Shown here: piece after piece, positions 7,084 through 25,130 of the stretch
Layout: each line of letters starts with the position of its first letter
Numbering within the stretch: position 1 is the first letter of the stretch
Assembly (NCBI RefSeq): GCF_000169155.1
Contig: NZ_AAWL01000017.1
Location: 1-49,230, forward strand
DNA length: 49,230 bases
Direction: 5' to 3'
DNA from: Thermosinus carboxydivorans Nor1
GTDB lineage: Bacteria; Bacillota; Negativicutes; Sporomusales; Thermosinaceae
Made by a program: the position numbers and the translations under genes
Notes under the pieces: model-generated
Database searches by the model: none
What the model was told of the DNA's origin: nothing
What the model saw: only the letters and a program-made list of their open reading frames with translations

Positions 7084-8169
7084 TCATGCCAGCCGGTCAT
7101 CCGGCAACAGTTCGCTGTAACGCCCTTCAATCTCGCGAATTTCCGGCAATATGGCCAAAAATGCGTCCACTACTGCCGGGTCAAAATGCCGGCCCCGCTC
7201 CTGCCGCATGATGACCAGCACCTGCTCGAGCGGCAGCGGCTGCTTGTAGGGCCGCCGCTGCCGCAAGGCGTCAAAAACATCAGCGACGGCAACAATGCGC
7301 CCGGCCAGGGGAATGGCCTCGCCGGCCAGACCATAGGGATAACCCGCGCCGTCCCACCGCTCGTGGTGGGACAAGGCGATAATCCGCCCGGTCTCAATCA
7401 GCTCCAGTTCCGACCCTTCCAGGATGCGGGCGCCGATGACGGTGTGCTGCTGCATCAGCTGCCGCTCGTATTCATTAAGCGGCCCGGGTTTCTGCAGGAT
7501 ATGGTCGGGAATGGCGATTTTGCCGACATCATGCAGCGGCGCGGCGTGATGCAGCAGGTCGCAGGTCTTAGCATCAAGGCCGAGCTGCCGCGCGATCGCG
7601 GCGACATAGTGGCTGATGCGCCGCAGGTGCTGGCCGGTGTCTTCATCGCGGTACTCGGCCGCCCGGCACAACCGGTAAATAGTTTCAAGCGACGCATGTC
7701 TCACCTGTTCCAGCGCCTGCTCCAGCTCGCGGGTGCGTTCGGCGACCTCGGCAGCCAGTCGCTGGTTTTGCTCCTGCAGCTGGTCATAATACGCCTTAAT
7801 GCGCAGCAGCGACCGCACCCGGGCATACAACTCGATTTTCTCGACCGGCTTGATAATAAAATCATCCGCCCCCAGCTCAAACCCGCGGGCCCGGCTCTTG
7901 GCATCCGCCAGGGCGGTTACCATCACTACCGGCACGGCCTGCCCGGCCGGTTCGGCCTTCAGCCGGCGCAGCACTTCGAACCCGTCGATGTCCGGCAGCA
8001 TGATGTCGAGGAGAACCAAATGGGGTTTAAACGTCTCTATTGCCGCCAGCCCTTCGGCACCGCTGCCGACTGTCTGCACTTCGTAGCCGGCCGGCATAAG
8101 GAGGGCTTCCATCAGGCGGGCGCTGCGCGCGTCATCTTCGATTACCAGGATTTTCGCTTTAGCGTTCAC
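7084..8169 (-). CDS. Response regulator with HD-GYP domain (cyclic-di-GMP phosphodiesterase type)
   Basis: 361 residues. A receiver domain (about 1-125: IEDDARS, phosphoacceptor in HLVLLDIMLPDIDGF, Lys in IKPVEK) is followed by a coiled-coil linker (about 130-165, QLQEQNQRLAAEVAERTRELEQALEQ) and an HD-GYP domain. The latter has HDVGK and HHERWDGAGYP, the metal-binding and substrate signature of c-di-GMP phosphodiesterases. The start is a GTG at 8169 behind GGGGTGATAG, overlapping the 3' end of the histidine kinase gene by 11 bases, so kinase and regulator form a clear two-component pair. Phosphorylation likely controls c-di-GMP breakdown. Confidence 0.93.
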   Translation of the reverse strand: MNAKAKILVIEDDARSARLMEALLMPAGYEVQTVGSGAEGLAAIETFKPHLVLLDIMLPDIDGFEVLRRLKAEPAGQAVPVVMVTALADAKSRARGFELGADDFIIKPVEKIELYARVRSLLRIKAYYDQLQEQNQRLAAEVAERTRELEQALEQVRHASLETIYRLCRAAEYRDEDTGQHLRRISHYVAAIARQLGLDAKTCDLLHHAAPLHDVGKIAIPDHILQKPGPLNEYERQLMQQHTVIGARILEGSELELIETGRIIALSHHERWDGAGYPYGLAGEAIPLAGRIVAVADVFDALRQRRPYKQPLPLEQVLVIMRQERGRHFDPAVVDAFLAILPEIREIEGRYSELLPDDRLA

Positions 8170-10153
8170 GAACTATCACCCCACACTCGCCGCCGTCCTG
8201 CCTGACCGGCAACACGAAAGTAAACCGGCTTCCCTGGCCCGGCTCGCTGCGTTCAAGCCAGATACGGCCGCCGTGCAGCTCGACAAGCTGGCGGGTGATC
8301 GCCAGTCCCAGGCCGGTGCCAGGTGTCTTGGCCGTCAGGTTGCCGCTTACCTGGTAAAACGGTTCAAAAATGTGTTCGGCATGCGTGGCGGCGATACCGA
8401 TGCCTGTATCTTCCACGCTTATTTCCAACCACTCGCCGGCATCGCGGCATTCCACTTTGATAGCGCCGCCATCCGGCGTGAACTTTACGGCATTGGACAA
8501 TAGGTTGTACATGATCTGCTTGAACCGGCGGACATCCACCTGGACTTGTGGCGGGACGCCGGCGTCCACCGCCAGTTCCACCGCAATGTTTTTGGCCGCC
8601 GCCCGGTCTTTAATGATGCCCAGCGTCTGGCGCAGCAGCTTCGCAATATCGACCGTTTCGGGATAGAAGTTGGTTTTCCCTGCATTAAGTTTGGCCAGGT
8701 CGAGCACGTCATTGATGATTTCCAATAAATGCCGCGCGCTGTCTAGAATATCGTTAACATAGACCTGCTGTTTATCGTTAAGGGGCCCGAAATGCTGGTC
8801 CAGCAAGACTTCGGAAAACCCCATGATGGCATTGAGCGGCGTGCGCAACTCATGCGACATGGCGGCCAGAAACTGGTCCTTGGCCTGATTAGCCGCTTCC
8901 GCTGCGGCCAGCGCCTCGGTCAGCTTCACTTCCAACTGCTTATGTTCGGTAATGTCCACCGCCAGGCCGATAATGCCGGTCACCCTGCCAGCTTCGTCCC
9001 GCACCGGCACTTTCTGCATATACACGATGAGCTTGCGGCCGCCGCTGGCAATCAACTCCTCGTCGGCCCATACCGACAGCTCGCCGTCAATCAGTTGCTT
9101 GTCCTCGGCGGCATACCGCTGCGCCCGCGCCGGCTCATGCAGTTCATAAATAGTCCGCCCGATCACTTCGTCCGGCCGCAGACCCAGCGCCGCGGCAAAC
9201 TGCTGGTTGACAAGAAGATAGCGGCCGTCAACATCGCGGTAAAAAGCATAGCCCGGCAGGCTTTCAAACACCGTCGCCACCAGCCGCTGTTGCTGCTGCA
9301 GCTCGGCTTCCGCCTGGTGGCACTTAGCCTGCGCCTGTTCCAACTGCGCCTGCAGCTGCACCTTTTTCATAATCAACGCGACCAGCGCTGCCAATTGGCC
9401 CATGAGGTAAATAGCCTCGCTTTTTTCACCATGTTGAAGTTTGCAATCATAAAAGACAATTATGCCGTGTACATTAACAGCCGTGTCAAAGACCGGAATG
9501 CCAACCGTTACCCCGCCGCCGTCGCCACCGCAATCAAACCGGATTGAGCCGCTCTGGCACACTTGCTCCACCAGACTGGGTTCCGGTTGGACGCCGGCGG
9601 CCACGTCGGCTGCCGCCACCACCTTCGGCCCGTCCGGACCGCAGAGAATGAACTGCCCGCCGCTGGCCCGAAAAATATTGGCGGCGGCCTCCAGAACCAT
9701 TGTGAGTATAACGGTTAGCACCGCATCTTTTACCAAATCGGTCAGCGCATTGTTCACAACTGCCAGCCAGCTATTTACCGCCGCCTGGCGTTCGGCCGGC
9801 GCCCCGGCCGCATCGCTTTCCCCCAGCTTGTCGTCCGCCGCCGTGGCCTCAATAATTCCGGTAACCATTCTGCTGCCGGCCGCCGCTGGCGGCGCGGCCT
9901 GTCCCCGCAGCCGCCAGCGGCGGCCGGCGGCGGTAAAGGCAATATTGATGCTGCCGCCATCAGCGGCAGCATCCAGATGCTCATTGAGCCGCGCCGCCTC
10001 GGGCGGCGGCAGCAGCGCCAGCAGGTCGGCGCGCAAGATTTCTCCGCCAACCAGGCTGCAGCCTGATCCGAAAACGAACACATCATCGTCAAGATGCCAT
10101 GTCCATACTGCCCACTCCGCGTCAGGCGCTTGTCTGTCGCATTCCGGCAACAT
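8159..10153 (-). CDS. PAS-domain sensor histidine kinase
   Basis: 664 residues, with no clear membrane segment. An N-terminal region of unclear type and a GAF-like region (about 120-260) are followed by a short coiled coil rich in Gln (LQAQLEQAQAKCHQAEAELQ), a PAS domain (about 290-410), a HisKA domain with the H-box MSHELRTPLNAIMGFSE (about 430) and a HATPase domain with the N-box NLLSNAVKFTPDGG, VEDTGIGI and GTGLGLAI. GAGAGGAGCGAG precedes the ATG. It is the cognate kinase of the overlapping HD-GYP regulator gene and lies 36 bases downstream of the riboswitch-controlled HD-GYP gene. Confidence 0.93.
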   Translation of the reverse strand: MLPECDRQAPDAEWAVWTWHLDDDVFVFGSGCSLVGGEILRADLLALLPPPEAARLNEHLDAAADGGSINIAFTAAGRRWRLRGQAAPPAAAGSRMVTGIIEATAADDKLGESDAAGAPAERQAAVNSWLAVVNNALTDLVKDAVLTVILTMVLEAAANIFRASGGQFILCGPDGPKVVAAADVAAGVQPEPSLVEQVCQSGSIRFDCGGDGGGVTVGIPVFDTAVNVHGIIVFYDCKLQHGEKSEAIYLMGQLAALVALIMKKVQLQAQLEQAQAKCHQAEAELQQQQRLVATVFESLPGYAFYRDVDGRYLLVNQQFAAALGLRPDEVIGRTIYELHEPARAQRYAAEDKQLIDGELSVWADEELIASGGRKLIVYMQKVPVRDEAGRVTGIIGLAVDITEHKQLEVKLTEALAAAEAANQAKDQFLAAMSHELRTPLNAIMGFSEVLLDQHFGPLNDKQQVYVNDILDSARHLLEIINDVLDLAKLNAGKTNFYPETVDIAKLLRQTLGIIKDRAAAKNIAVELAVDAGVPPQVQVDVRRFKQIMYNLLSNAVKFTPDGGAIKVECRDAGEWLEISVEDTGIGIAATHAEHIFEPFYQVSGNLTAKTPGTGLGLAITRQLVELHGGRIWLERSEPGQGSRFTFVLPVRQDGGECGVIVRER

Positions 10154-10189: not shown

Positions 10190-10894
10190 CTATTCTTCTT
10201 GCCCGCCTGACGCACTATGCCAGGCAGGTGGCAGGACTCTCTCCAGCCCCGCCACCGCTTCCGGCAAAAACAGGTGCTGCTCCTTTTTTATCAGTGCAAA
10301 GGCCTGGCGTGGTTCCAGCCTGAGTCGATAGCTCCGCTCCGACGTCACGGCGTCAAAGGCATCGGCAATTGCCACGATACCGGCCAGCAAGCTGATCTCG
10401 CTTCCCCGTATCCCGGCCGGATACCCGCTGCCATCGTAGCGCTCATGATGCTGGGCAATAATTGTCAAGACCGAGTCTTCCATCGCCAGCGGTCTGAGCA
10501 TGTCGCAGCCGACGCGGGGATGCTGCCTTACCAGCAGCCACTCCTCGGCCCGCAGCCGGCCAGGTCGGTTGAGAACTTCCGGCGGCACCAGCACCATGCC
10601 TATGTCATGGAGCAGCGCGCCAAGCCCGAGCGCCTGACCAGCCTGCCTGTCCAGCCCCAGTCTTTCGCCAATCATTATCGCCAAGAGCGCCACATTCAAA
10701 GAATGGGAATAAACCCAGCCGGCATACCCGACCAGCGCGCCCAAGTGTACGCCCCAAACGCTGTGGCGGGCGGTTTCGAGAAACGCTCCTACCCGCGCCG
10801 CCGCGGCCGCGATCAAGTCCTGGTCCAACCCGTGTATAGTTTCAGTTAGCCTAGTGACTGCAGCAACTACTAGTCCATCATCGTGCGTTTGCAT
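10190..10894 (-). CDS. HD-GYP domain protein, catalytic part (separated from its N-terminal part by a poly-C frame break)
   Basis: Its 234 residues carry HDIGM (Met replaces the Lys of HDxGK) and HHERYDGSGYP, followed by IADAFDAVTSERSYR, so this is an HD-GYP domain of the c-di-GMP phosphodiesterase class, with one motif position changed. The apparent ATG at 10894 has no good ribosome site. It sits just after a run of 15 C (minus strand) that breaks the frame from an upstream segment at 10870-11091. With 16 or 13 C the two would fuse into a single protein of about 300 residues. It is the first gene after a c-di-GMP-I riboswitch and precedes the histidine kinase gene by 36 bases. Confidence 0.85.
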   Translation of the reverse strand: MQTHDDGLVVAAVTRLTETIHGLDQDLIAAAAARVGAFLETARHSVWGVHLGALVGYAGWVYSHSLNVALLAIMIGERLGLDRQAGQALGLGALLHDIGMVLVPPEVLNRPGRLRAEEWLLVRQHPRVGCDMLRPLAMEDSVLTIIAQHHERYDGSGYPAGIRGSEISLLAGIVAIADAFDAVTSERSYRLRLEPRQAFALIKKEQHLFLPEAVAGLERVLPPAWHSASGGQEE

Positions 10895-11091
10895 GCGCGG
10901 GGGGGGGGGGGGGACGTAATTTCGGTCCCCCTTCGCTCGAGTGCCACTTTGCGCTCGAGCAGCCGCCGATAGACCTGCGGCGTTATTTCTTTGCCTTTGG
11001 CCACCAGCAAGACGCCGTCCTCATCATAAATATCGCGTTCGGCAATGTTGCCTGCCGTCTCTAAGCCGCCGTTTCCGCCTGTTCCGGCCAT
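10870..11091 (-). CDS. N-terminal part of the HD-GYP protein, out of frame after poly-C
   Basis: The start is an ATG at 11091 behind GGGAGGG at 7-base spacing. About 60 residues make sense (GNIAERDIYDEDGVLLVAKGKEITPQVYRRLLERKVALERRG); this opening is common on stand-alone HD-GYP proteins. The frame then runs through four Pro codons made by the poly-C tract and stops about 30 bases later at a TAG inside the HD-GYP coding sequence. I interpret it as one gene with the downstream HD-GYP frame, in an OFF or low-translation state, unless the tract length is a sequencing error. Confidence 0.7.
   Translation of the reverse strand: MAGTGGNGGLETAGNIAERDIYDEDGVLLVAKGKEITPQVYRRLLERKVALERRGTEITSPPPPRACKRTMMD
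10899..10913. repeat. Homopolymer run of 15 G (C on the coding strand)
   Basis: A mononucleotide run inside a coding region, exactly where the reading frame of the HD-GYP gene breaks. Runs of this length are prone to slipped-strand mispairing. Adding one base or removing two restores the full frame. Confidence 0.95.
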
Positions 11092-11158: not shown

Positions 11159-11191
11159 GAAAAACAGCAAAAATGCAGGCTGTCCGCCTGC
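11159..11191 (-). terminator. Terminator-like hairpin, expression platform of the c-di-GMP riboswitch
   Basis: GCAGGC and GCCTGC pair around GGACA on the minus strand, followed by ATTTTTGCTGTTTTT. It lies between the c-di-GMP-I aptamer and the HD-GYP start codon, so it probably controls read-through. Which ligand state favours it cannot be read by eye. Confidence 0.75.
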
Positions 11192-11251
11192 CAACCAGCT
11201 TATAATCGCTTCATCATTGCATAATATACAAACAATTAGCTCTAATGCTAA

Positions 11252-11336
11252 TTGGCAACCTGGCGATCATAGACACCCAATGTCCTTAGACCCATGGCTT
11301 TGCGTCCCCGGCTTTCGCCGGGTTTGCCCAACTTAT
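11252..11336 (-). ncRNA. Cyclic-di-GMP-I (GEMM-I) riboswitch aptamer
   Basis: The minus strand carries the GEMM-I blocks in order: GGGCAAACC, a stem capped by the GAAA tetraloop (CCGGCGAAAGCCGG), GGGACGCAAAGCC, then a second arm containing GGGTCTAAGG and closing near ATCGCCAGGTTGCC. A promoter lies upstream, and a terminator hairpin and then the HD-GYP gene lie downstream. Regulation of a c-di-GMP phosphodiesterase/kinase operon by c-di-GMP itself would form a feedback loop. Confidence 0.93.
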
Positions 11337-11375
11337 GTATATCGAAATATGTCGAAAACCTACCTCTTTTGTTTT

Positions 11376-11690: not shown

Positions 11691-12797
11691 TTACACGTTG
11701 AACCGGAAATAGACCACGTCGCCGTCCTGCATCACGTAGTCTTTACCTTCCAGGCGGATGAGGCCCTTTTCTCGGGCCGCGCCGTAGCTGCCAGCGGCCA
11801 TGAGGTCGGTATAAGACACTACCTCGGCCCGGATAAAGCCGCGCTCGATATCGCTATGAATTTTGCCGGCCGCCTGCGGCGCCTTGGTGCCCTGCCGGAT
11901 GGTCCACGCCCGCACTTCCTGTTCGCCGGCGGTGAAAAAGGTGATAAGGCCCAGCAGCTTATACCCGGCCTTAATGAGCTTGTCCAACCCCGACTCGGCA
12001 AGGCCCAGCTCGACCAGAAACTGTTTGGCTTCCTCGTCGGGCAGCTCGGCAATTTCCGCCTCGAGTTTGGCCGAAACGGCGATCACCTCTGCCCCTTCCC
12101 CGGCGGCATACTGTTTAACCGCCTGCACATAGGGGTTGGCGTCCGGAGCGGCTACATCGTCTTCGCTAACATTGGCGACAAATAGCACCGGTTTGAGGGT
12201 GAGCAAGTTGAGATCGCGCACCAACGCCTGTTCTTCTTCGCTTAAGCCCAGCCGTCGCGCCGGCTGGCCCTCACCCAGCCCGGTCCGCAGGCGCTCAAGG
12301 ACGGCAAACTCGCTCTGGGCTTTTTTATCACCGGCTTTGGCCATTTTTTGTGTGCGCTCAAATCGTTTTGCCACCGTCTCCAGGTCGGCAAGGCACAGCT
12401 CGGTGTTGATAATCTCAATATCGCGCAAGGGGTCAAGCGCTCCTTCGACATGGGTGATGTTGGCATCGGCAAAGCAGCGTACCACCTGAGCCACGGCATC
12501 GACCTGACGGATGTGGGACAAAAACTTGTTGCCAAGCCCCTCACCCTGGGATGCACCCTTGACCAGACCGGCGATGTCGACAAACCGCATGGCGGTTGGT
12601 GTTGTCTTGCGCGGCTTATACATCTCGGCCAGCGTCCACAGCCGCTCGTCCGGCACTTCCACCACACCCACGTTGGGTTCAATGGTGCAAAAGGGGTAAT
12701 TGGCCGCTTCCGCCCCTGCCTTGGTAATGGCGTTGAACAAAGTGCTCTTGCCCACGTTGGGCAGCCCAACAATACCTACTTCCAAATTGGTGCTCAT
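11691..12797 (-). CDS. ychF: Redox-regulated ATPase YchF (Obg-family)
   Basis: A 368-residue protein of the usual YchF length. The P-loop [15 protein letters not shown] is at about 10-24, switch II is [24 protein letters not shown], and the usual NKxE base-recognition motif is replaced by NVSE (ANVSEDD), which explains the ATP preference of this family. A helical insertion and a C-terminal TGS domain ([30 protein letters not shown]) follow. YchF binds the ribosome and ATP. A homologue lies near rpsF-ssb-rpsR in B. subtilis (yyaF). The start ATG is preceded by AAGGTGGAG. Its probable promoter is 5' of a dispersed palindromic repeat, so that repeat would be part of its leader RNA. Confidence 0.96.
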
Positions 12798-16300: not shown

Positions 16301-16330
16301 CCGCCTGGGCTAATTTTTGCCCAGGCGGTC
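16301..16330 (-). terminator. Intrinsic terminator of the ZTP riboswitch
   Basis: A 10-bp perfect stem CCGCCTGGGC/GCCCAGGCGG is followed on the minus strand by TATTTATTTTT. Its 5' arm is the conserved 3' block of the ZTP aptamer, so the two structures exclude each other. Confidence 0.88.
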
Positions 16331-16389
16331 GGCTTTTCTTCGGATACAGTCCACGTGGTTGCTTCCACTAATCCGCCAGTCCTGTATCC
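16317..16389 (-). ncRNA. ZTP/ZMP (pfl motif) riboswitch
   Basis: The minus strand shows the pfl-motif order. GGATACAG pairs with CTGTATCC to close the first domain, which contains GACTGGCGG and a CCACGTGG stretch. After the linker GAAGAAAAGCCGA comes the highly conserved CCGCCTGGGCA. That last block is also the 5' arm of a terminator, so ligand binding should block termination and switch pflB-pflA on when ZTP/ZMP rises (folate shortage). This motif class was named after its association with pfl genes. Confidence 0.94.
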
Positions 16390-16413
16390 TGTCTGTTAAA
16401 TTATTCTGGTTAA

Positions 16414-25005: not shown

Positions 25006-25041
25006 AAAATAAAAAGACCTGCCCCCCTTAAGGTGCAGGTC
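25006..25041 (-). terminator. Terminator of the liv/CBS-ACT operon or of a small RNA
   Basis: GACCTGC pairs with GCAGGTC around ACCTTAAGGGGG on the minus strand, followed by TTTTTATTTT. Confidence 0.85.
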
Positions 25042-25130
25042 CCGCAGAGCCTTTCTGCTGCAAACGCCCGGCTGCACTGCCTCGCGGCAGCCGCCTGTTC
25101 CTGTTGTATTATATTAACACGGCGGAGGAA
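25042..25130 (-). other. Structured noncoding stretch, candidate small RNA or long 3' end
   Basis: Between the CBS-ACT stop codon and the terminator the minus strand carries GC-rich hairpins: CTGCC-GCGA-GGCAG, a GNRA-type loop nested in GGCTGC...GCAGCC, and GCAGCAGAAAGGCTCTGC. A weak promoter (TTTACA, 17 bases, TAATAT) lies upstream, overlapping the stop-codon region. I recognise no RNA family. Confidence 0.35.

Follow-up and report, generated by a model that had tools for sequence, protein, structure and literature searches.

An HD-GYP gene of Thermosinus carboxydivorans Nor1 is parted into two reading frames by a run of 15 C, which raises the question whether this tract is a switch of c-di-GMP turnover or has a more ordinary origin. 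The locus was analysed within a window of 49,230 nucleotides (the whole of the stretch taken from contig NZ_AAWL01000017.1) and compared with the only other Thermosinus genome in the set used (G001, hereafter the congener), the two being its sole members of the genus and family. On the minus strand, the order is the ychF-like gene, then the riboswitch, the terminator and ATG 11091. The features are as follows.

11691-12797: ychF-like GTPase gene, first in the minus-strand order of the locus.
11251..11338, minus strand: c-di-GMP-I riboswitch aptamer (RF01051), 84.1 bits against a gathering threshold of 35.
11160..11191, minus strand: predicted intrinsic terminator of the riboswitch, a GCAGGC/GCCTGC stem plus T runs, conserved in the congener.
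10870..11091, minus strand: N-terminal reading frame as ended in the C15 state, starting at ATG 11091.
10899..10913, minus strand: C15 homopolymer (G15 on the plus strand) in polyproline codons, the proposed slippage switch.
10190..10921, minus strand: HD-GYP reading frame (Pfam HD_5, 1.3e-35) with an internal ATG at 10894; a tract of 13 or 16 C is needed to connect it with the N-terminal frame.
8159..10153, minus strand: downstream PAS-histidine kinase gene in the same direction, 36 bases past the HD-GYP stop, an adjacency that the congener lacks.
7084..8169, minus strand: downstream response regulator with an HD-GYP domain, of the same orientation; it, too, lies elsewhere than next to the gene in the congener.

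The original prediction had placed the split exactly at the C15 run, and the coordinates were confirmed (10913-10899 on the coding strand). Translation from ATG 11091, which is preceded by GGGAGG, is stopped by TAG 10872-10870 when the tract holds 15 C. The predicted frame arithmetic also proved correct: lengths of n = 1 mod 3 (13, 16) join the N-terminal and HD-GYP frames, while 14 or 15 C lead to a stop within 7-9 codons past the tract. Both alternative frames terminate shortly after the tract in Nor1 and congener alike, and in both species a change of one unit is, by this arithmetic, a switch between a full-length and a truncated product. An uninterrupted C15 inside a gene has the form expected of a simple-sequence contingency locus, and we consider it likely that this tract is such a locus and governs the HD-GYP protein.

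Homopolymers are the sequences most often miscounted, and the Nor1 genome (2,889,774 bases) is an old draft assembly of 49 contigs in which the count may be off by one. The exact number of C, and with it the ON or OFF state in this assembly, is thus uncertain. However, a one-base miscount would alter the state of Nor1, not the presence of the tract. At the orthologous site of the congener the run is likewise of exactly 15 C, after the same TACGT, in a colinear locus with ychF and riboswitch, so that tract length was read as 15 in both of the two assemblies. Since the same tract stands in an independent assembly, a simple sequencing artefact is unlikely and was dismissed as the whole explanation; the miscount that had been named as the alternative could account for the OFF state in the Nor1 assembly but cannot account for the tract. 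The shared position indicates that the tract is older than the species split.

The congener gene is open, with 311 aa from its ATG and the sequence FTSPPPPRRTQ across the tract. Nor1 and congener are 79% identical in nucleotides and 71% in amino acids over the HD-GYP part, and a five-base difference just past the tract shifts the frame that is required, so that the equal length of 15 C is ON in the congener and OFF in Nor1. Tract position is therefore conserved, and both states are seen among relatives, of which only one is close. This also bears on a reading in which recoding makes the tract length irrelevant. Polymerases and ribosomes can slip on long homopolymers, and slippage of either on C15, or re-initiation at ATG 10894, would yield some HD-GYP product in every cell; this ATG lies four bases 3' of the tract in the HD-GYP frame, and the N-terminal frame ends about 22 bases beyond. 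Yet ATG 10894 is not conserved in the congener and is preceded by poly-C instead of a purine-rich Shine-Dalgarno sequence, and the in-frame tract of the congener means that no conserved frameshift is required. We regard such recoding as quite improbable.

A further reading accepts the tract but fixes its length: it would encode a polyproline linker in a gene that is always ON, and the 15 would be an error of the consensus, the true length being in frame. The draft state of the Nor1 assembly and the constraint on the HD-GYP frame (below) would both fit. Against it, the two species differ by 0.24-0.37 per synonymous site, and synonymous interruptions of the CCC codons could be expected since the split, but 15 uninterrupted C are found in both, and the congener independently reads 15. 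Moreover, a tract of this length is intrinsically unstable. A fixed length is therefore held to be unlikely.

Pattern searches of genomes were used to ask how common such runs are. Nor1 (2.89 Mb) has only 18 C/G runs of at least 8, all 8-10 long except one of 13 and one of 15, and the sole run of at least 11 in the congener sits at the orthologous position of the C15 tract. Chance is therefore no explanation of the tract. Together the two genomes hold 27 runs of at least 8, and those common to both are only the long tract and a run 5' of a gene that has 8 bases in one species and 9 in the other. For the order, 28 genomes with a summed listed size of roughly 117 Mb gave 12 runs of at least 12. 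Nine of these fall outside long reading frames; the remaining three interrupt a long frame, all in HD-GYP genes of Thermosinus, one of them unshared and possibly decaying.

In the wider class, runs of at least 12 occur in 61 of 300 genomes. Some of them, mostly in one family (f18), break outer-membrane receptor-like, methyltransferase-like and other frames (names read from the sequence, not from a family search). Repeat-tract switching is therefore plausible in the class, but none of the loci read there would direct it at a c-di-GMP gene. In several genomes of a single family, runs of at least 12 are numerous, with 64 in one, and some stand in receptor- or methyltransferase-like frames (loci L158, L169, L170, L171, L174 and L175), possibly as a set of contingency loci. 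A near-pure poly-G stretch of about 2 kb in a draft genome of the class (L165) is probably a sequencing artefact.

Shorter runs were seen at other sites. One G10 run of the congener lies directly 5' of the Shine-Dalgarno sequence of a small ORF (L052 4533-4542), and a SAM riboswitch (RF00162) that precedes an ABC-transporter ATPase gene has a G10 run at its 3' end (L053 3186-3195). A 102-aa gene beside an EPSP-synthase-like gene (L054 2663-2971, minus strand) has a G10 run about eleven codons in, in frame, with an in-frame ATG just past the run, and could be another contingency site.

When about 20 relatives of the same class are aligned with the protein, the tract falls in a hypervariable linker that connects a small N-terminal domain to the HD-GYP domain; in these relatives the protein is fused and no tract is present. 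A scan of contigs from named genomes yielded distant HD-GYP proteins only. Intact homologues lacking the tract had been named as evidence against phase variation; the distant homologues are indeed tract-free, but the only close orthologue has the tract. The HD-GYP halves of Nor1 and congener align over 217 codons free of gaps and stops with a dN/dS of 0.31 (bootstrap 0.22-0.46), compared with 0.54 for the N-terminal half and 0.04 for ychF, which indicates purifying selection on the HD-GYP half. Under neutrality this frame would stay stop-free over the whole lineage with P about 0.02, a value still compatible with a recent loss.

These data weigh on the idea that T. carboxydivorans is losing the gene by decay, with the tract as a harmless mutational product. 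One observation in the same genome would fit such decay. On another Nor1 contig (C42), a G13 run in the coding strand (L051 3332-3344) parts an HD-GYP frame from the frame 5' of it, the two being out of register by one; this gene and its congener counterpart share the same two neighbours, pdxS- and pdxT-like, and the counterpart (L055 869-1954) is an intact PAS-HD-GYP gene free of a tract. Since homology is lacking over the 5' part of the C42 gene and the encoded PAS domain is damaged, this gene may be decaying. However, the C15 tract is older than the species split, the HD-GYP half of the gene is gap-free, stop-free and under purifying selection, and the riboswitch and leader are conserved, which makes a neutral relic very improbable. 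The G13 run was also considered as a second contingency locus; it is kept as a lead on which the case does not rest, as the alignment shows the tract to be unshared and the 5' part of the gene not homologous.

The gene product is predicted to be a c-di-GMP-degrading HD-GYP enzyme. The metal ligands H, HD and H align, as does HHE..DGSGYP with the HHExxDGxGYP motif. The lysine of HDxGK, the form found in active HD-GYP enzymes, is absent, the two Thermosinus proteins having HDIGM and HDVGM with the other motif residues kept; this position is K in the aligned same-class relatives, except for one N, and in 4mcw. Because HDxGM stands in place of HDxGK, phosphodiesterase activity is uncertain.

A c-di-GMP-I riboswitch lies 5' of the gene in both species, with aptamer and leader nearly identical. 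A predicted alternative antiterminator pairs 11257-11252 with 11194-11189 and uses bases of the aptamer closing region, which suggests that high c-di-GMP would turn the riboswitch OFF. The predicted energies of terminator and antiterminator are near-equal (-63.6 versus -61.1 kcal/mol in Nor1 and -62.2 versus -65.5 kcal/mol in the congener). Elsewhere in the two genomes, class-I riboswitches stand 5' of chemotaxis-receptor genes and, in the congener, also of another HD-GYP gene (names read from sequence). One of them lies 5' of a truncated-looking chemotaxis-receptor gene (L144 1938-2842) of 202 aa, compared with a 682-aa congener copy (L146 92-2140). The window further holds ZMP/ZTP and NiCo riboswitches at 16312-16393 and 25035-25112, both on the minus strand.

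Phase variation of the gene, as proposed originally, is favoured by a tract that is common to two species and in frame in one, by the constraint on the HD-GYP half and by the tolerant linker; the OFF state of Nor1 may still be a miscount. For the contingency locus we infer that slipped-strand mispairing, when the C15 run is replicated, would alter its length in living cells. Two MutS-family genes are present, so mismatch repair may slow this slippage. Tracts of 1 mod 3 length would give a fused protein of N-terminal domain, polyproline linker and HD-GYP domain; at other lengths translation would stop within about ten codons past the tract. Heritable but reversible differences between cells in an HD-GYP c-di-GMP phosphodiesterase would result. 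If the ligand favours the terminator, as predicted, high c-di-GMP would lower expression, and a phosphodiesterase under an OFF riboswitch would form a double-negative loop that sharpens two states. Switching may in addition be polar on the kinase and response-regulator genes that follow. That stochastic poly-C slippage in a riboswitch-controlled c-di-GMP hydrolase sets the side of a self-reinforcing c-di-GMP switch on which a lineage stands, possibly with two such HD-GYP genes (C15 and G13) in one genome, is a more tentative proposal, to which we give somewhat less than even chances.

The closest known systems are of three kinds. In Clostridioides difficile, pdcB and pdcC are phase-variable c-di-GMP phosphodiesterases switched by DNA inversion (PMC9286219). 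As proposed for Thermosinus, a c-di-GMP phosphodiesterase is there turned ON or OFF heritably, in an anaerobe of the Bacillota that has c-di-GMP riboswitches. That system relies on an upstream site-specific invertible element and an EAL protein, whereas Thermosinus would use a homopolymer inside an HD-GYP gene that has a riboswitch of its own. Contingency loci with poly-C or poly-G homopolymers are known from Campylobacter and Neisseria (PMC8355987, PMC5320596; reviewed in PMC11868660) and share the intragenic G/C tract and ON/OFF control by frameshift. Their known targets belong to host-associated bacteria and are for the most part surface structures and DNA methyltransferases, whereas here the target would be a second-messenger enzyme of a free-living thermophile. 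A phosphodiesterase of the E. coli sfa operon is likewise an example of c-di-GMP turnover reached by phase variation; its switch is epigenetic (PMC11868660), not repeat-based as proposed here. A repeat-switched HD-GYP protein or diguanylate cyclase was not found in the open-licence papers searched, an absence that is weak evidence.

Phase variation is known mainly for surface genes of pathogens, and the links to c-di-GMP described so far are DNA inversion or epigenetic switching. If the proposal is true, an environmental thermophile would have a repeat-tract switch in a c-di-GMP enzyme that is under its own c-di-GMP riboswitch, and the second-messenger state itself could be bet-hedged through slippage.
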